A stretch of 64,000 bases of DNA from Synechococcales cyanobacterium CNB (GCA_030263455.1 SZOZ01000008.1:124001-188000), one strand, 5' to 3'; counted from the first letter of the stretch, positions 5,894 through 34,386 are shown. Numbers and translations are program-made. Notes: generated by a model from the letters alone, not told the origin.

Positions 5894-6640
5894 TCAGCGA
5901 CGGCGACGGATCGCGGCCAGGCCGCTCAGGCCGAGGAGGGCCAGGGAGGCTGGAGCCGGGATGATGGTGTAGACGCTGGTGCCGCTGGCCAGGTCGAATG
6001 CGGTGAGTGTGAAGGCCCAGCGAGAGCTCATATCGAAGACGCCGCCACCGATGTTGGCGAACCCACCGCCGCCGGGGAACTCGTCGGACATCGTGTCGCT
6101 GGAGAAGGCCCCCGCGGAGAAGCTGCTGTTGAGGAGCGAGGCGAACTGGGTGCCTCCCGGGACTTCGCCGTTGTAGTGAGAGAGGTGCGCGCCGGCGGCG
6201 TCTGGGGTGAAGGTCACGCCGTTGCCGTTGACGTCGGTGATGCTGACGCCCGCGGAGGCAGCGCCCTTGGCGTTGAAGAGCGTCGGGAAGCTGAGGAGGC
6301 CGGAGCCGACCGAGAAGCTCGTGTTCTGGTTGTTCGCCTGCACGTTGAAGTTCAGGTGGATCACGGGGTCGGCGATGAAGGTGACGGACGCGGTGCCGAG
6401 CGTCGCGAGGACGGAGCCGCTCTGGGACTTGATGTCGATGGGGTTGTCCAGGTTCCAGTAGAAGTTGCCCTTGTCGTCCCACGTTCCCATGTCGCTGGTG
6501 GCGACGAAGGAGCCGGACTCGCCACCGACGGACGCGACGAGTGTGAAGACTTCGTACGAGATGTCCGCGTATGCGGCGCCGCTGACCGCGAGAAGCGCCA
6601 CCACACCGCTGACCGTCCCACCGAGCCGATTCCGTGTCAT
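5894..6640 (-). CDS. Secreted PEP-CTERM-like protein, paralogue B of a tandem pair
   Basis: The 248-residue protein has a signal peptide (about residues 1-26, ending AAYADIS). It has the same beta-rich body as its neighbour at 5045-5812 and a tail reading IIPAPASLALLGLSGLAAIRRRR. The ATG at 6640 is preceded by GGAGAGAAGG at good spacing; the open frame upstream to 6733 lacks signal-peptide character. Tandem duplication followed by divergence is the simplest explanation for the pair. The function is unknown. Confidence 0.8.
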   Translation of the reverse strand: MTRNRLGGTVSGVVALLAVSGAAYADISYEVFTLVASVGGESGSFVATSDMGTWDDKGNFYWNLDNPIDIKSQSGSVLATLGTASVTFIADPVIHLNFNVQANNQNTSFSVGSGLLSFPTLFNAKGAASAGVSITDVNGNGVTFTPDAAGAHLSHYNGEVPGGTQFASLLNSSFSAGAFSSDTMSDEFPGGGGFANIGGGVFDMSSRWAFTLTAFDLASGTSVYTIIPAPASLALLGLSGLAAIRRRR

Positions 6641-7037
6641 GACCTTCTCTCCAGTTCCGATCGCGCTCTTCGCGAGTCCGGGAACACCCCGCGCTCGAAC
6701 GCAACGCACTTTCCTGAACTGTTCCGGCCACACAACGGCGGCCGACGTCTCCTCCCGGTCTGTGACGGCAGCCCGACGAGGGGCTGAGGCATGCTCTCTC
6801 TGCCCACGATCTCACCGGGAATGAAAGGACATGTCAATACCTTTCATGTGCTTTCGTCCGAGAAATCGAACCGATGGAAACATCGTTAGGATTGTGTTTG
6901 GTCCCGATTGTTCATGTCTGGCCAAGTTGCCGGGGTCGAGGAGGGTGATTCGAGCCGCGGCAGGAGATCGAGTGATCGTCGCTCCACGCCGCCTTGGTAG
7001 ACTCGGGCTGCAGGGGCGAGGTAGAGAGAGAGGCCTT
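6641..7037. other. Intergenic region between divergent secreted-protein genes
   Basis: No gene is seen in these 397 bp. The segment 6825-6915 is clearly less GC-rich than its surroundings and probably holds promoters for both directions. One candidate on the minus strand is TTGACA at 6837-6832 with TGAGAT 17 bases further; the -10 match is poor, so this is only a suggestion. Confidence 0.4.
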
Positions 7038-28294: not shown

Positions 28295-29215
28295 TCACCC
28301 GCCCGGGATGGTGATCGGCCCGCCGGGGGTGTTCTTACGGCGGGGGTCGCGTTCGGAGTCCTGCTGCGTGCCGCCCGGCGCCGTGCCCGGCGTAATTCCG
28401 GCGTCGCGGAGTTTGCGGAGCAGGTCGCGAATCTGCCGGACGACCTCCGGCGGCAACTGGTCGCCCATCTCCTCGAGCATCTTTTCGATGGCGTCGAGGT
28501 CGAGGTTGGCCGGGTCGAGACCCATCGCCCGCAACTGCGCGAGCACCTCTTCGGGCAGTCCGAAGGGGTTGCCGCCGTCGGCGAGCGCCATGCCGCCGGC
28601 GGACTCGTAGTCGCTCTGTGCCAGGCCGTCCCAGGCGGTCGCGCGGACACGGACTTCGGGCGTGGCGGGCGCACCGCCGAAGACCCAGGAGTCGAAGACG
28701 CGCGTGCCGTCCCAGCGCAGGATGTAGGACGCGCCCGGCTCCTGCACCGCGAAGGCGACGGATGCAGCCGTGGGTGATTCGCTGAAACGGGCGTAGTCGT
28801 CGATCCAGACGATGCGGACGGCCTCGATGCGCGAGGTCGCCTCGGCCCACTCGTCGGAAGCGACAAGCGTGTCCAGCACGCTCTGCGCGGGCTTGTCGAG
28901 CAGGCGACGGGCGGCGCTCGCGTCGCCCCGGGCGAAGGCGTCGGCGAGGCGCACGACAGCCTCGGCGAGCGAGCGATCCACGGGCGCCTGCGACTCGACG
29001 AACTGCACCGCCGCGCTGGCGTTGAGCGCCTGCACCACGGCGCGGGCGTCCACCGGCTCGGGCGGCGGAGGGGGGGGCGGCGCGGGCGGCGGCGGCGGGG
29101 GCGGAGGGGGCGGCGGCTTGCTGCACCCCCCGAGGGCGAGGGGGATCGAGGCGACCAGGCACGCCAGCGCGAGGCCGCGGGCGGCGAGGCGGGACGGCTT
29201 ATTCGCTCGGAACAT
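28295..29215 (-). CDS. Lipoprotein with long polyproline segment, function unknown
   Basis: The 306-residue protein has a lipoprotein signal peptide (lipobox ALGGC, about residue 30). After it comes a run of about 20 almost uninterrupted prolines (residues 34-53), presumably a stiff periplasmic spacer. Residues about 55-220 form a folded alpha/beta region (VVRLADAFARGDASAARRLL, VRIVWIDDYARF, YILRWDGTRVFDSWVFGG). The rest is an acidic helical part (LPEEVLAQLRAMGLDPAN) and a Gly/Pro tail. The family is not recognised. The start codon overlaps the end of fabD by 17 bases and GGAGG lies within fabD, so translation is probably coupled. Confidence 0.8.
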   Translation of the reverse strand: MFRANKPSRLAARGLALACLVASIPLALGGCSKPPPPPPPPPPPAPPPPPPPEPVDARAVVQALNASAAVQFVESQAPVDRSLAEAVVRLADAFARGDASAARRLLDKPAQSVLDTLVASDEWAEATSRIEAVRIVWIDDYARFSESPTAASVAFAVQEPGASYILRWDGTRVFDSWVFGGAPATPEVRVRATAWDGLAQSDYESAGGMALADGGNPFGLPEEVLAQLRAMGLDPANLDLDAIEKMLEEMGDQLPPEVVRQIRDLLRKLRDAGITPGTAPGGTQQDSERDPRRKNTPGGPITIPGG

Positions 29216-30188
29216 CGTGCGCCTCCACTTTCAACCCCCGGTCAATCCGTCGCATCAGCCCGGCGAGGGTTCGGCCGGGGGCGAGTTCATGCATCGCGGC
29301 CGCGGCGGTGTTGGCCGCGAGCCATCGGGCGCAGTCGGCCCAGCGGACGGGCTGGGTCAACTGCTCGACGAGGCGGAGGCGGATGGAGTCCGCAAGCGCC
29401 TTCGGCACAGGCGGGACGCCTGTGCCACCTTGGATCGTATCACTCGCCGCGGCGTGCGGCAGACCGGTCACGTTCGACAGCACGGGGCAGCGTGGGGGGC
29501 GGATGGTGGTGCGGGCGAGGGCCTCGGCGAGGCGTTCCGCGGCGGGGGCCATCAGCGGCGAGTGGAACGCGCCGGCGACGGGGAGCGGCTGGACGCGAAG
29601 GCCCATGGATTCCGCGGCCTTGACGGCGCGCTCGCAGGCCGCGGTCGCGCCGCTGAGGACGACCTGGCCGGGTGCGTTGAAGTTGGCGCAGACGAGGATG
29701 TCGGCGGCGCGGGCCGTGTCGCAGACGGCGCGGGCCTGGGCTTCGTCCGCGCCGATGAGGGCGACCATGCCGGAGGGTGTCGCTTCGGCGGCGTCCTGCA
29801 TGGCGCGGCCGCGGAGGGTGACGAGTTCGAGTGCATCGGCGAACGCGATCGCGTCGGCGGCGTGGAGGGCGGTGTATTCGCCGAGCGAGAGGCCGGCCGT
29901 GGCGGCGAGGGGGAGTTCGTCGGGCGAGACGGCCCAGGCGGCGCAAAGGGCGCGCAGGCAGGCGACGGAGACGGTGAAGATCGCGGGCTGGGAGACGTCG
30001 GTGCGGTTGAGGGTGTCGGCTGGGCCGTCGAAGCAGAGGGATCGGAGGGGCGCGCCGAGGCGGGCGCCGAGGATGCGCTCCGCGTCGTCGAAGACGGCGC
30101 GTGCCTCGGGCGAGGCGTCGTGCCAGGCGCGTCCCATGGCGAGTGCCTGCGCGCCCTGGCCGGGGCAGAGGAGGACGATGGGGTTCAT
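29199..30188 (-). CDS. fabD: Malonyl-CoA:ACP transacylase
   Basis: The 329-residue enzyme loads malonate from CoA onto acyl carrier protein. LCPGQGAQALAMGRAWHD is the N-terminal signature, TAGLSLGEYTAL carries the nucleophilic serine (about residue 97), and AGAFHSPLM has the catalytic histidine (about 207). A short stretch IQGGTGVPPVPKA at about residues 257-269 does not belong to the family. It coincides with a perfect DNA palindrome (29404-29426), which suggests a small in-frame insertion. The gene has the same orientation as fabH-plsX-rpmF but is separated from them by a plus-strand cluster. Confidence 0.94.
   Translation of the reverse strand: MNPIVLLCPGQGAQALAMGRAWHDASPEARAVFDDAERILGARLGAPLRSLCFDGPADTLNRTDVSQPAIFTVSVACLRALCAAWAVSPDELPLAATAGLSLGEYTALHAADAIAFADALELVTLRGRAMQDAAEATPSGMVALIGADEAQARAVCDTARAADILVCANFNAPGQVVLSGATAACERAVKAAESMGLRVQPLPVAGAFHSPLMAPAAERLAEALARTTIRPPRCPVLSNVTGLPHAAASDTIQGGTGVPPVPKALADSIRLRLVEQLTQPVRWADCARWLAANTAAAAMHELAPGRTLAGLMRRIDRGLKVEAHDVPSE
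29404..29426. repeat. Perfect palindrome inserted in frame in fabD
   Basis: GGCACAGGCG and CGCCTGTGCC form a 10-bp inverted repeat around GGA. On the coding strand it translates as GTGVPPV, a peptide foreign to the FabD family. From memory, the same GGCACAGGCG-type palindrome recurs in other Planctomycetes and Verrucomicrobia genomes, giving GTGVPPV or GTPVPP peptides; that recollection needs checking. Confidence 0.75.
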
Positions 30189-30288: not shown

Positions 30289-30600
30289 ATGGTGTACTTC
30301 GGCAAGGTCAAGGGCGGTCGGATCGAGTTGGACCCGCCGGGGCGGCTGCCGGAGGGCGCGCGCGTTCGCGTCGAGCCTGTCGGTGAGCAGGGGAGCGGGA
30401 ATGGACAGCATCCCGACCCGGCCGACAACCTCGCGAGCGAAGCCGTGGACGTCGGCATCACCGACATGTCGGACGAGCACGACCACTATGCAGCCGAGGG
30501 GGACGATCCTGTTTATCATTTGGGCGATGATGCCGCGGATGCCCCATCACTTTCCGCCGATCTGGCCGCTAGGCACGATCACTTCCTCTGCTGCACATAA
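30289..30600 (+). CDS. Small AF2212/antitoxin-like protein
   Basis: The 103-residue protein starts at an ATG with GAGG 7 bases upstream. Its first 32 residues (MVYFGKVKGGRIELDPPG, then LPEGARVRVEPV) match the small beta-fold of AF2212-like/DUF104 proteins often described as antitoxins. The rest is acidic, with two similar stretches, SDEHDHYAAEGDD and ARHDHFLCCT, that look like an internal duplication. The expected toxin partner (usually a PIN-domain protein directly downstream) is absent; the next gene starts about 360 bases later. It may be a decayed or solitary antitoxin. Confidence 0.65.
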   Translation: MVYFGKVKGGRIELDPPGRLPEGARVRVEPVGEQGSGNGQHPDPADNLASEAVDVGITDMSDEHDHYAAEGDDPVYHLGDDAADAPSLSADLAARHDHFLCCT

Positions 30601-30961
30601 AGGCGCAGCGACACTTGAGCGTGCTGCCCCTGACAGAACACCTCAACTCCCCGTTTGAACTGCTCCAGACTTCGGCTATCGCCGGCAGCCCGCGCGGTTC
30701 CTCCGGAGCGGGCGATCAACTCGTACCCCGTGCCACGCGACGACCGGACGATGTTAGGGTACTATGGAGGGCAAGAGGCTACTTGTGAGGCACTGCACCG
30801 CGCCTCCACAGGGCGGCGTCAATCACCGCACGATGGCCCTCTGTGTATGGTACGTTCTTGTCGTAACAGGACTTGCGCAATATCAAGGAAAGCCGACGGG
30901 AGGGGCTTGACAACCCCGCCCCCCCCCCGGTAAACTGCGGGGGAAGGCAGGGGCATGACCC
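30601..30961. other. Intergenic region upstream of the MauE-like gene
   Basis: No convincing gene is present in these 361 bp. The last 60 bases hold a good sigma-70 type promoter (30907-30936). The rest contains only short frames without protein-like composition. A toxin gene lost from the antitoxin-like gene upstream could have lain here, but no remnant was recognised. Confidence 0.5.
30907..30936 (+). promoter_or_regulatory. Predicted sigma-70 type promoter for the MauE-like operon
   Basis: A perfect TTGACA at 30907-30912 is followed after 18 bases by TAAACT (four of six matches to TATAAT). The spacer is a C-rich homopolymer run whose length could affect promoter strength. The start codon of the MauE-like gene is 26 bases after the -10 element. 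Confidence 0.6.
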
Positions 30962-31441
30962 ATGCGCGCGTTGCTCGCTCTCGCAGCCCGGTTCGTTCCG
31001 CTGCTCGCCGGCACGGTCCTCTTCCTCGCCGGAATTGCGAAGGCCGTTCAGCCCTCAGATACCCTGACCTCGCTCGCATGGGTATTCGGGGAAGAAGCTG
31101 CTCCCGCAAGTCTCGTGCTCCTGATCTCGGTCGAGATCGTTCTCGGTTCACTGCTCGTTGCGTCTTTGCTGCCGAAGTGGTCGCTCGGCGCTTCGGTATT
31201 GCTGTTTAGTTCGTTCCTGGCCTGGATCGGTGTCTTGGAGTGGATGAACGCGCCAGTGGGGTGTGGCTGCGGCGTCCGCCTGCCGATGGCTTCCGCGCTG
31301 ACGAGCGCCGACAGCCGGTCCGAGGCGCTTGTTCGCGCCGGGGGAATGTTCGTGTTGTGTGTGCTCGGGTTCGTGGGGTCTTGCCTTCGCACCACGACCG
31401 GGCTGATTCGAAATCCTGCGAAGGTGAGCGGAGTCGAATGA
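30962..31441 (+). CDS. MauE/DoxX-like membrane protein
   Basis: The 159-residue protein has four predicted membrane helices (about residues 8-27, 49-70, 75-97 and 122-142). The sequence FLAGIAKAVQPSDTL in helix 1 and the glutamate in ISVEIVLGSLL of helix 2 fit the MauE branch of the DoxX family. A CGCG cluster follows helix 3. MauE proteins are linked to periplasmic disulfide formation, for example in methylamine dehydrogenase maturation. The stop overlaps the start of the next gene (ATGA), which encodes a secreted protein with ten cysteines. A role in oxidising that product is a reasonable inference. Confidence 0.75.
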   Translation: MRALLALAARFVPLLAGTVLFLAGIAKAVQPSDTLTSLAWVFGEEAAPASLVLLISVEIVLGSLLVASLLPKWSLGASVLLFSSFLAWIGVLEWMNAPVGCGCGVRLPMASALTSADSRSEALVRAGGMFVLCVLGFVGSCLRTTTGLIRNPAKVSGVE

Positions 31442-31710
31442 TGAGAACTCATCGGGATCGGATCATTGCCCTGTTCCGTGCCGCGGCTGCCATCGGCATG
31501 GTGGCGATGGGCGCCGGCATGGTTTTCGCCGCGGACGGAGGGGGTGGTCCGGCCCCCAGTCCCGACTACTGCTGCTTCACCAAGTGTTGTCCTGACGGCG
31601 GCGGGGGGTTCGACTGCGCTACGCACTGTCGATCGGCCTGTCCGAGCGGGAAAACCTGTTCCGGGACCGGTACGTGCAATCCCGTGACCGCTCAGGCGCA
31701 GTGCATCTGA
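31438..31710 (+). CDS. Small secreted Cys-rich protein
   Basis: The 90-residue protein has a signal peptide (about residues 1-31, ending VFAADGG) and a mature part of about 58 residues with ten cysteines: YCCFTKCCPDG, then FDCATHCRSACPSGKTC and GTCNP...QC. No family is recognised. The even number and close pairing suggest disulfide bonds, although metal binding is possible. Its start overlaps the stop of the MauE-like gene by four bases (ATGA), so the two are translationally coupled. An ATG one codon later is an equivalent start. Confidence 0.7.
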   Translation: MMRTHRDRIIALFRAAAAIGMVAMGAGMVFAADGGGGPAPSPDYCCFTKCCPDGGGGFDCATHCRSACPSGKTCSGTGTCNPVTAQAQCI

Positions 31711-31774
31711 TTACCGCACAGGCGGCGACCCGTGGCGACGGAGCGCCGCCGTTTGCTCGTATGAGTTCAATCCC

Positions 31775-32569
31775 ATGCACAATGGTTCTCACCAGCGAGG
31801 AAACGTTCGCCTACGGTTGATACTGGCGATCGTCGTCATGGTTGCCGGTCTGGGTCTTGCCTTCCGCGCGCTGCGGCCGGTCCTCTGGCCGGCAACGCCT
31901 TCGCCACTACCACCGCAACTCACGGAAGCTTCGGAGCGACTCGGTCCCGGCCTTCTCGACACCGATCCGGCCAAGGAGCCTGCGGGCGACGCCGTTTCGC
32001 GCGCGGCGGGAGTTGCTCGTCTCGCCCTGGGTCATCCCTCATTCTCAGGAGTCGTCGGTCCGCGACGGCTTGACGATCTGGTTCTAGCGTTCGAGGAACG
32101 GTTGATTGCGACACTCGATGGAGAATACGAGCGAGATATGGCCGCACGACTTGCTCGCGGCATGCCACCTCCGCCATCTCCGCCAAGTCAAGTTACGATC
32201 GACAACTACAGGAAGACGGCAGATTGGACCAGACACACTGCGATCGGTATCGATCGGATTGAAGTACGCGTCATCTTCGACAAAGGGAAACCAGCAGCTC
32301 CCACGCCGACTGAGGAGGGGTTTGACGCGCTTACCTACACCAAAAAAGGCGCTACCGCGTTCCCCATCCCGGAGGATCCCTCCAAGGCGGGGCTCGACGT
32401 CGTTGAGGTTCGAATCCCCATGGCGCTTCGTCCGATCTCCGGCCGCTCGCGTGGAGCTGTTCTTGTTGGCTACCAGTTTGCTTGGAGCGAGAACCGGCAG
32501 CAGTGGATTCCGTTCGTGAACGTCGTCTATTGTGCACAAGGGGAGAGTTATGCCATACTCCCGTTCTGA
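31775..32569 (+). CDS. Membrane-anchored protein, function unknown
   Basis: The 264-residue protein has one N-terminal membrane helix (about residues 13-32) after a basic stretch, so most of it lies outside the cytoplasm. A Pro-rich linker (TPSPLPPQL) and a folded region follow, the latter with RRLDDLVLAFEERLIATLDG, a second Pro-rich loop PPPPSPPSQV and the C-terminal VEVRIPMALRP and VGYQFAWSENRQQWIPFVNVVY. The family is not recognised. Its 3' end overlaps the pseudopilin gene by 20 bases, and codon use is visibly less GC-biased than in the flanking fab genes. The topology resembles minor components of pilus-like export systems, but that is inference from context. Confidence 0.7.
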   Translation: MHNGSHQRGNVRLRLILAIVVMVAGLGLAFRALRPVLWPATPSPLPPQLTEASERLGPGLLDTDPAKEPAGDAVSRAAGVARLALGHPSFSGVVGPRRLDDLVLAFEERLIATLDGEYERDMAARLARGMPPPPSPPSQVTIDNYRKTADWTRHTAIGIDRIEVRVIFDKGKPAAPTPTEEGFDALTYTKKGATAFPIPEDPSKAGLDVVEVRIPMALRPISGRSRGAVLVGYQFAWSENRQQWIPFVNVVYCAQGESYAILPF

Positions 32570-33311
32570 CAAAGGGGAGTCCTACCGCCCAGCCGCCTTC
32601 ACGCTGATCGAGATTCTCGTTACGATCGGTGTGCTCGCCGTGCTGATTGCGATTCTGATCCCTGCGCTCGCCGGGGCGCGGGCCGCAGGGAGCGGAACCG
32701 TGACGCTCTCCAATCTCCGCCAACTCGCCGCAACTTTCGAGCAGTACCTGCGCGCGTACGATCAGACTTGGCCGTATGCGCCTCCCGGCGCCGCTTTCGT
32801 CGTCTCGCCTCCGGACGATGGTGAGATCGACATCGTCTATCCGGGATACTGGGAGCTGGACATCTACTGGACCGCACTTATGCACGACGTCGCACCGTGG
32901 CGAGAACACTTCCGAACTTGGATCGGCCCCGGGGCGGCTCCTGACGAGTCGCGTCCGTGGCGCCGAGACGGCGTAGGCGTTGGGGTACCATCGTACCGCT
33001 TGAGCCACACCCTATTCGCACGCCCCGAACTGTGGGCGCCCGCTCCTGAGAGCGATCCGGCTTTCTACAGGCCCGTTCGATCGCACGACGTGCTGTACCC
33101 GTCGTCAAAGGCGACTCTGTGGGACGCGGAACTGACACACCTGCGGGCCAGCCCGAACGCAGACCGCGACCCGAGGGCCATGACCTTTGCCGACGGGCAT
33201 GTCGCCGTGCGCCGGCTTTCCGAAGCCGCGGTGCCACCCATCATACCCTCGAAGCCTGACACTAAACCCGTTCAGGATACACCCCGTGGGGCGAGGGGTC
33301 GCGACTACTGA
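32550..33311 (+). CDS. Type II secretion / pilin-like protein (prepilin N-terminus)
   Basis: The 253-residue protein has a prepilin leader and methylation site, AFTLIEILVTIGVLAVLIA, with the +5 glutamate, starting near residue 16, followed by IPALAGARAAGSG. Planctomycetes carry many such pseudopilin-like proteins. The C-terminal part has the common AMTFADGHVAVRR motif found at the end of planctomycete pilin-like (DUF1559-type and relatives) proteins. The ATG at 32550 with AAGGGGAGAG upstream was preferred to the GTG at 32532. It is the last gene of the MauE-like cluster and is convergent with fabH. Confidence 0.8.
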   Translation: MPYSRSDKGESYRPAAFTLIEILVTIGVLAVLIAILIPALAGARAAGSGTVTLSNLRQLAATFEQYLRAYDQTWPYAPPGAAFVVSPPDDGEIDIVYPGYWELDIYWTALMHDVAPWREHFRTWIGPGAAPDESRPWRRDGVGVGVPSYRLSHTLFARPELWAPAPESDPAFYRPVRSHDVLYPSSKATLWDAELTHLRASPNADRDPRAMTFADGHVAVRRLSEAAVPPIIPSKPDTKPVQDTPRGARGRDY

Positions 33312-33372
33312 TCGATCGCGACTTCATCACAAGCTGGCTGAACGCTGCATCTGTCTTTGAACACATCCACGC

Positions 33373-34386
33373 TCAGAACTGCCACAGGCTGCTGGCCCAG
33401 GTGAGGCCGGCGCCGAAGGCGAGGAACATGACCTTGTGTCCCTCGCGGAGGCGGCCGCTGTGCTTCAGCTCGTCAAGCACTAGCGGGCACGAGGCGGCGA
33501 CGGTGTTGCCGAAGCGGTCGATGTTGACGTGGAGTTTCTCGCGCGGGAGACCGAAGCGCTCGCGGGCGGCTTCGAGGATGCGCGAGTTGGACTGGTGGCA
33601 GACGTAGTGGTCCACGTCCTCGGCGGAGAGGCCGGCGCGCTTGAGCGTTTCCTCGATGAGGCTGGGGAAGGTGCCGACGGCGAACTTGAAGACTGCCGGG
33701 CCGTGCATCTGCACGACGCCCATCTTGCGCTCGTCGAAGTCGTCGCCCGGCGTCATGTGGCAGCGGTGGGTGGGGATATAGAGGTGCCGCGCTCCCCCGC
33801 CGTCGGAGTGCATGATCTGGGCGAGCAGGCCCTTCGAGGCGTCGTCGGTGCGTTGGAGGAGGACCGCCCCGGCCGCGTCGCCGAAGAGGATGGCGGTGCC
33901 TCGGCCCATGGTCGAGTAGTCAGCGTGTCGGGTGAGGCAGTCCGCGCCGACGAGGCCCACCGTTCGGTAGCCCGCGGTGCGCATCAGGGACTCGGCAACG
34001 TTCAGGGCGTACACGAAGCCGGAGCACGCCGCCGAGAGGTCGAAGGCGGGAATCTGCCCGGCGCCGACCCGATCGGCGATCATGCACGCCACGCCGGGCG
34101 TGGGCATATCGGGCGTCATGGTGGCCGCGAGGATGATGTCGAGCTCGCCCGCCGCGACGCCCGCCTCGGCCATGGCCTTGCAAAGGGCATCTGCGCCGAG
34201 CGAGGCGGTGCCCTCGCCCGCCTCGGGGTCGTGAACATGGCGCTCGCGGATGCCGGTGCGCTGGACGATCCACTCGTCCGAGGTGTCCATGACCTTCTCG
34301 AGGTCGGCGTTCGTCAGCACTCGCCGAGGCACTGCAGAGCCTGTGCCCGCGAACCGGACGCCGATCGCGGGCTTCGGCCTGCTCAT
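33373..34386 (-). CDS. fabH: 3-oxoacyl-ACP synthase III
   Basis: The 337-residue condensing enzyme starts fatty acid synthesis by joining acetyl-CoA to malonyl-ACP. The catalytic triad is visible: Cys in DLSAACSGFVYALN (about residue 124), His in VCHQSNSRIL (about 267) and Asn in DRFGNTVAAS (about 297). DEWIVQRTGIRERH is the N-terminal signature. The start ATG overlaps the plsX stop (ATGA), so the two are coupled. The usual next gene, fabD, is displaced by about 3.2 kb because a plus-strand cluster lies in between. Confidence 0.95.
   Translation of the reverse strand: MSRPKPAIGVRFAGTGSAVPRRVLTNADLEKVMDTSDEWIVQRTGIRERHVHDPEAGEGTASLGADALCKAMAEAGVAAGELDIILAATMTPDMPTPGVACMIADRVGAGQIPAFDLSAACSGFVYALNVAESLMRTAGYRTVGLVGADCLTRHADYSTMGRGTAILFGDAAGAVLLQRTDDASKGLLAQIMHSDGGGARHLYIPTHRCHMTPGDDFDERKMGVVQMHGPAVFKFAVGTFPSLIEETLKRAGLSAEDVDHYVCHQSNSRILEAARERFGLPREKLHVNIDRFGNTVAASCPLVLDELKHSGRLREGHKVMFLAFGAGLTWASSLWQF

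Follow-up and report, generated by a model that had tools for sequence, protein, structure and literature searches.

What joins a disulfide-type membrane protein, a secreted cysteine-rich (Cys-rich) peptide, an anchored extracytoplasmic protein and a pilin-like protein in one short run of genes, and what might they do together? The question is raised by a locus within a stretch of 64,000 nucleotides (SZOZ01000008.1:124001-188000, hereafter the window) of assembly GCA_030263455.1, listed as Synechococcales cyanobacterium CNB; the source genome as analysed is that of a planctomycete (Phycisphaerales), 3.2 Mb in 17 contigs. Four plus-strand genes are present at positions 30962-33311, encoding in this order a MauE-type membrane protein, a secreted Cys-rich protein, an extracytoplasmic protein (termed P3) and a pseudopilin. 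The locus is one of about 15-17 dispersed copies of an undescribed four-gene unit, referred to below as the cassette. We consider it nearly certain that the four genes form a real joint system, as the initial annotation of the window had supposed, because the genes are conserved together, MauE and pilin are frequently fused, MauE lineages match P3 types, and the gene order is shared with another genus.

The genome contains 17 full MauE genes and one weak match. One of the 17 is a housekeeping gene in a DUF1573 - rhodanese - MauE locus, and nearly all of the other 16 are accompanied by a secreted Cys-rich open reading frame (ORF), a pilin and, mostly, a membrane-anchored protein of 200-390 aa. 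The housekeeping locus (L009, 4272-6529; L and G denote loci and genomes, respectively) is conserved in the family, with orthologues in L026, L037, L044, L051, L059, L064, L071, L074 and L077, and carries neither a Cys-rich gene nor a pilin. The cassette pilins are characterized by a C-terminal domain of about 200 residues that ends in a conserved G-x-x-G-R-D (GRD-pilins). Among the 59 prepilin proteins of the genome, 14 are full-length GRD-pilins, every one of them encoded beside a MauE gene; one further copy (L014) is truncated at a contig end, and the remaining 45 or so match the GRD-pilin model mainly in the N-terminal helix. The initial annotation had named absence of the Cys-rich gene from homologous clusters as an outcome that would refute a joint system; this was checked, and no other neighbour proved as constant. 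A Cys-rich ORF occurs within 2 kb of 72 of 90 GRD-pilins as compared with 17 of 133 control genes (p=6e-25, one criterion set), antisense artefacts having been removed by hand from the pilin-side list and not from the control list, a bias that works against the difference. In addition, MauE and pilin are fused in a single reading frame in 27 of 85 MauE genes. With some 15 repeats in the genome, and more in dozens of related genomes, what would be expected of a chance arrangement is far exceeded.

The order of the genes varies among the cassettes. Type A is arranged as P3-Cys-MauE-pilin, type B as pilin-Cys-P3-MauE, and type C as Cys-P3 followed by a MauE-pilin fusion. The MauE-Cys-P3-pilin order of the window, which the initial annotation had suggested seeking in other genomes, recurs in another genus (L067), where a P3 homologue (25% identity, E 5e-6) occupies the same position; MauE-Cys neighbours with a pilin nearby were also observed in L076 and L193. 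In the single-contig genome G208, GRD-pilins that lack a MauE occur in tandem pilin-Cys-P3 repeats. The G208 units (L178 11000-18500, L180, L184, L187 and L188) are of the pilin-Cys-P3 or pilin-Cys form and follow one another as duplicates or triplicates, MauE being absent from some. Because the Cys-rich gene is the constant neighbour and the G208 repeats persist without MauE, the pilin and the Cys-rich protein are the core of the unit, with MauE and P3 as its usual members. GRD-pilins were detected in 51 of 61 genomes of the family (1-22 copies each) and in 24 of 100 genomes of the order, mostly of the same family, with a few in others. Among 159 genomes sampled across the phylum, only the source genome itself was positive, with 20 candidates scored per genome, so that absence is not absolute.

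Examination of the window genes reveals the close packing and the sequence features described in the initial annotation. The MauE-type protein (30962-31441, 159 aa) scores 43 bits against PF07291 (cut-off 27) and contains a CxC motif (C101-x-C103). Its TGA stop codon and the ATG of the Cys-rich gene (31438-31710, 90 aa) share an ATGA overlap, and all ten cysteines of the encoded protein are located after its hydrophobic leader. This protein has no Pfam or NCBIfam family and clusters weakly with short Cys-rich peptides of other cassettes. P3 (31775-32569, 264 aa), likewise without a Pfam or NCBIfam family, has one N-terminal transmembrane anchor, and its stop codon is overlapped by 20 bp by the start of the pilin gene (32550-33311). 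The pilin (253 aa) exhibits the prepilin motif AFTLIE and a C-terminus of ...GARGRDY; it matches the cassette pilin model over its full length (204 bits), exceeds the cut-off of NCBIfam TIGR02532 (18.5 vs 16.3 bits), and scores 20.9 bits as a protein and 25.9 bits in six-frame translation against Pfam N_methyl (PF07963, cut-off 21.2). A promoter-like TTGACA-18-TAAACT element (30907-30936, plus strand; consensus scan, 10 of 12 matches) lies 25 bp ahead of MauE. The "one good promoter" described previously is thus present as a site, but taken alone it is weak evidence, since one such site was found against 0.4 expected.

The P3 proteins do not form a single family, a possibility that was considered and rejected. 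They fall into at least four groups (A; B/D/F; C/E; and the window type) with no detectable kinship among them. Assignment of the window P3 to group C was also discarded, as the similarity was not significant, its homologue being found instead in L067. Structures were modelled for P3-A and P3-C. The predicted structure of P3-A, the common type (predicted local distance difference test, pLDDT, 85.8), is a half-barrel resembling LolA/LolB with a C-terminal transmembrane helix, and its comparison with solved LolA/LolB structures using Foldseek gave a probability of 1.0, an E value of 3e-6 and a target TM-score of 0.42-0.50. P3-A would therefore appear to be a membrane-anchored LolA/LolB fold, a moderate match obtained for this P3 type. 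For the predicted structure of P3-C (pLDDT 90.7), no match to PDB structures was obtained at E<=0.001 and the LolA/LolB fold was not matched; P3-C (L013, 6546-7433) may thus represent a new fold. Neither P3 nor the C-terminal domain of the pilin has credible sequence relatives in the PDB.

The history of the cassettes suggests a conserved platform with exchangeable parts. Mapping of the P3 types onto the MauE tree requires 8 changes, compared to a minimum of 7 and a mean of 36 for shuffled types. The MauE tree therefore groups by P3 type, and the association of MauE with P3 type is maintained over long periods. Synonymous divergence (dS) was compared between cassettes located at the same site in congeners, bearing in mind that the high values are near saturation and rough, whereas the low values are not. 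The Cys-rich and P3 genes are more divergent than MauE and pilin in L012/L052 (dS 0.82-1.8 vs 0.26-0.27) and in L021/L048 (1.76 vs 0.50-0.53), and less divergent in L017/L054 (0.10-0.12 vs 0.32-0.84). In L023/L049 the whole cassette (0.05-0.08) is closer than its flanks (0.37-0.81), and in L010/L045 the Cys-rich gene alone is discordant and P3 is not swapped (0.58 vs 1.5). At a given site, the dS of the Cys-rich gene and P3 is often unlike that of MauE, the pilin and the flanking genes, so that the pair behaves as exchangeable cargo. The simplest reading of these values is that recombination replaces the Cys-P3 pair and sometimes the entire cassette; the two genes appear to be swapped together, as in systems of competition or recognition.

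Several lines of evidence bear on the role of the cysteines. After removal of near-duplicates, an even number of cysteines was counted in 60 of 71 mature peptides (p=2.6e-9, signal cleavage being assigned by a simple rule), as is expected of disulfide-bonded proteins. The peptides include several Cys-rich subfamilies whose conserved alignment positions are occupied largely by cysteines. Among the cassette MauEs, CxCG, one Glu and one Arg are invariant. The even counts and the invariant MauE CxC lend independent support, at the level of sequence, to the putative formation of disulfides in the Cys-rich proteins. According to PMC7794033, which cites van der Palen 1997, the MauE family is linked to disulfides and is proposed to serve their formation in an exported protein rich in cysteines. 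In the cassettes, MauE probably performs the disulfide maturation of the Cys-rich protein.

We infer a mechanism in which MauE acts on the Cys-rich peptide and the pilin displays or exports it, as the initial annotation had envisaged. The Cys-rich protein would be exported by Sec and then folded through disulfide bonds, which its own MauE, a membrane CxC thiol protein, would make or shuffle. The cassette pseudopilin could be assembled into a short filament by the shared type II secretion system (T2SS) and type IV pilus machinery of the genome, and this filament may present or expel the folded protein. Prepilins depend on a prepilin peptidase for processing and on GspE/PilB ATPases for assembly, and the genome encodes one prepilin peptidase and many PilB/GspE-type ATPases outside the cassettes. 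Membrane-anchored P3 would be the cognate extracytoplasmic partner, acting as a chaperone, as a receptor or in the manner of an immunity protein. The Cys-rich gene and P3 would constitute the specificity cargo, diverging and being exchanged jointly, on a conserved platform of MauE and pilin, and the biological role is most likely to be competition between cells, or their recognition, at the surface. Display or export of the peptide by the pilin seems to us about evenly poised between right and wrong, and we would put similar trust in the overall model of a MauE-oxidised Cys-rich protein working with its own pilin filament and with P3 as its cognate partner.

Certain observations weigh against this model. 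No cassette has its own secretin, ATPase or thioredoxin-like MauD, and therefore both the export and the electron route are assumed; T2SS secretin, ATPase and platform genes were all searched for within the cassettes and none was seen. MauE is broken by one in-frame stop in two cassettes of the genome itself (L015 and L018) and is absent from several G208 units. One of the genome's own cassettes (L011) has a called peptide with three cysteines only, and some GRD-pilins (L194-L197) are without a Cys-rich ORF by the criteria applied. No toxicity domain was recognised, PADLOC (anti-phage defence) returned no match for seven cassette proteins, and none of the genes compared has dN/dS (nonsynonymous to synonymous divergence) above 1, so that positive selection was not detected. 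As for the individual loci, the stops are TGA in L015 (5994-6461) and TAG in L018 (6090-6767), where the Cys-rich genes are intact and either decay or assembly error may be responsible. The L011 peptide (6578-6778) lies between P3 and MauE and is possibly degenerate or a different cargo, and the GRD-pilin-like genes of L194-L197 (G214 and G018) may represent a remoter branch of this subfamily.

The joint exchange of two cargo genes is also what would be expected of an effector-immunity arsenal, in which P3 is a membrane-anchored immunity protein and the Cys-rich protein an antibacterial effector, stabilised by disulfides, that the pseudopilus carries or expels. The Cys-rich gene and P3 are exchanged and diverge together in L012/L052, L021/L048 and L017/L054 while MauE and pilin are conserved, and the same explanation would account for the many unlinked copies, the tandem pilin-Cys-P3 duplications, the exchange of the window slot with a toxin-antitoxin pair, and the low GC content at third codon positions (GC3) and atypical codon use of the cassettes. 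Yet no toxin fold or defence family was matched, the LolA-like common P3 could equally be a carrier or chaperone, and P3 was not swapped along with the Cys-rich gene in L010/L045; we regard this explanation as possible, if somewhat unlikely. The constancy of a type IV filament subunit, and a C-terminal GRD motif that suggests a conserved docking end, would suit instead a filament for surface recognition, adhesion or phage reception, of which the variable Cys-rich protein and the pilin are the structural parts and P3 the assembly chaperone. Cargo exchange, which resembles surface-antigen variation, would then reflect binding specificity or escape from phages or grazers. A single filament type would be unusual in having as many as 22 separate loci whose pilins differ, and no adhesive domain was recognised, such that this proposal too remains on the doubtful side.

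The presence of MauE as a shared maturation factor recalls the mau methylamine system, and MauA is a small protein with many disulfides. The cassettes could accordingly serve the maturation of a redox or cofactor enzyme, whose small subunit, catalytic or electron-transferring in the manner of MauA, would be the Cys-rich protein and whose larger partner would be P3. But beyond MauE itself the cassettes contained no recognisable mau-type gene (mauA-, mauB- and mauD-type families were absent from the cassette proteins scanned), no tryptophan is common to the Cys-rich subfamilies, and rapid exchange of cargo would be odd for an enzyme, which renders the idea improbable. The frequent CC and CxC pairs might alternatively indicate that the cysteines hold metal ions and that the unit is a metal-scavenging surface system; the strong bias towards even cysteine counts (60/71), together with export in the company of a thiol-type membrane protein, speaks for disulfides, and we consider metal binding very improbable.

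The model of a MauE-oxidised Cys-rich protein with its own pilin can be compared with described systems. The mau system shares the PF07291 family, with its proposed role in the disulfides of a Cys-rich exported protein, and differs in that the cassettes have many MauE copies, frequent pilin fusion and a partner without detectable relation to MauA. In the candidate RiPP (ribosomally synthesized and post-translationally modified peptide) clusters of Streptomyces (decRiPPter, PMC7794033), mauE likewise lies beside a small candidate precursor peptide; those clusters belong to another phylum and are reported without a pilin or P3, whereas the proteins here are secreted and of 85-150 aa. The Verru_Chthon cassette (TIGR02596, TIGR02599) of a related superphylum is similar as a named cassette with pilin-like proteins, but the cut-offs of both models were missed by far (15.4 vs 256.5 and 14.7 vs 70), the match being confined to the prepilin N-terminus. 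Numerous prepilin proteins scattered through each genome are also known as the N_methyl/SBP_bac_10 pilins of Planctomycetales (PMC8567305), but the GRD-pilins tested (window and L010) are without SBP_bac_10 (SBP_bac_10/DUF1559) and constitute a subfamily of their own, associated with MauE and Cys-rich genes. P3-A has its fold in common with the LolA/LolB carriers and differs in its C-terminal transmembrane anchor, its cassette context and the lack of detectable sequence similarity. Effector-immunity loci (bacteriocins, polymorphic toxins) also exchange a two-gene cargo within a conserved platform, but no toxin domain is present here. In summary of these comparisons, MauE, the prepilin N-terminus and the P3-A fold are known broad families; no match was obtained for the Cys-rich proteins or for the remaining P3 types. 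The combination, the GRD-pilin, the MauE-pilin fusion and the cargo exchange correspond to no described system in the libraries or open-access literature searched.

Most of what is known of the Phycisphaerales comes from metagenomes, and no role is known for the many prepilin-like proteins that they encode. The cassettes single out a definable subset of prepilins, each paired with one disulfide-type membrane protein and one hypervariable secreted protein rich in cysteines, and thereby suggest functions open to testing, both for MauE beyond methylamine metabolism and for pseudopilins that lack a complete secretion operon. The way in which the cargo is exchanged points to conflict or recognition, and the families also provide new disulfide-rich proteins that are accompanied by a presumed folding factor of their own. 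We raise only tentatively the possibility that the cassettes are surface weapons or kin-recognition systems of a new class, in which many dispersed loci per genome would supply pilus-borne, disulfide-folded effectors, each with its own presumed oxidase and membrane partner, and effector and partner would be swapped within an oxidase-pilin platform.

The window cassette is located between fabD (29199-30188) and fabH (33373-34386), both on the minus strand, a pair that is adjacent, without a cassette, in several other Phycisphaerales. In the nearest named relative, Phycisphaeraceae isolate TGS_PLA3 (L098; FabH 88% identical), the same slot contains a VapB-like gene and a PIN-domain gene (L098 2054-2703), the antitoxin-like gene being intact. 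DNA similarity between the two breaks at 30491 and picks up at 33370, and the stretch 30492-33370 is absent from the L098 slot. An ORF at 30289-30600 (plus strand) lies outside the cassette and encodes a truncated VapB-like antitoxin, the first 69 aa of which are 94% identical to the 78-aa L098 gene beside the PIN-domain gene; on the basis of this identity, we interpret it as the remnant antitoxin of a toxin-antitoxin pair formerly in the slot. The unit therefore begins near 30907/30962 and not at 30289, where the initial annotation had placed its start. The cassette genes have a GC3 of 0.73-0.75, compared to 0.88 for other genes, and their codon use is less typical (p=1.6e-16). A mobile element was considered and rejected: the cassette is not flanked by terminal repeats, the window copy showed neither a transposase nor an integrase, and in congeners a number of cassettes occupy the same site.

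L022 (5310-6630) contains a cassette remnant, in which no Cys-rich gene was found, with MauE and the C-terminal half of a GRD-pilin on the opposite strand; an adjoining ORF resembles what we take to be an IS3-type transposase. Within the window, a gene for an Mrr-type restriction endonuclease (PF04471; 36230-37108) is situated a few kb from the cassette.

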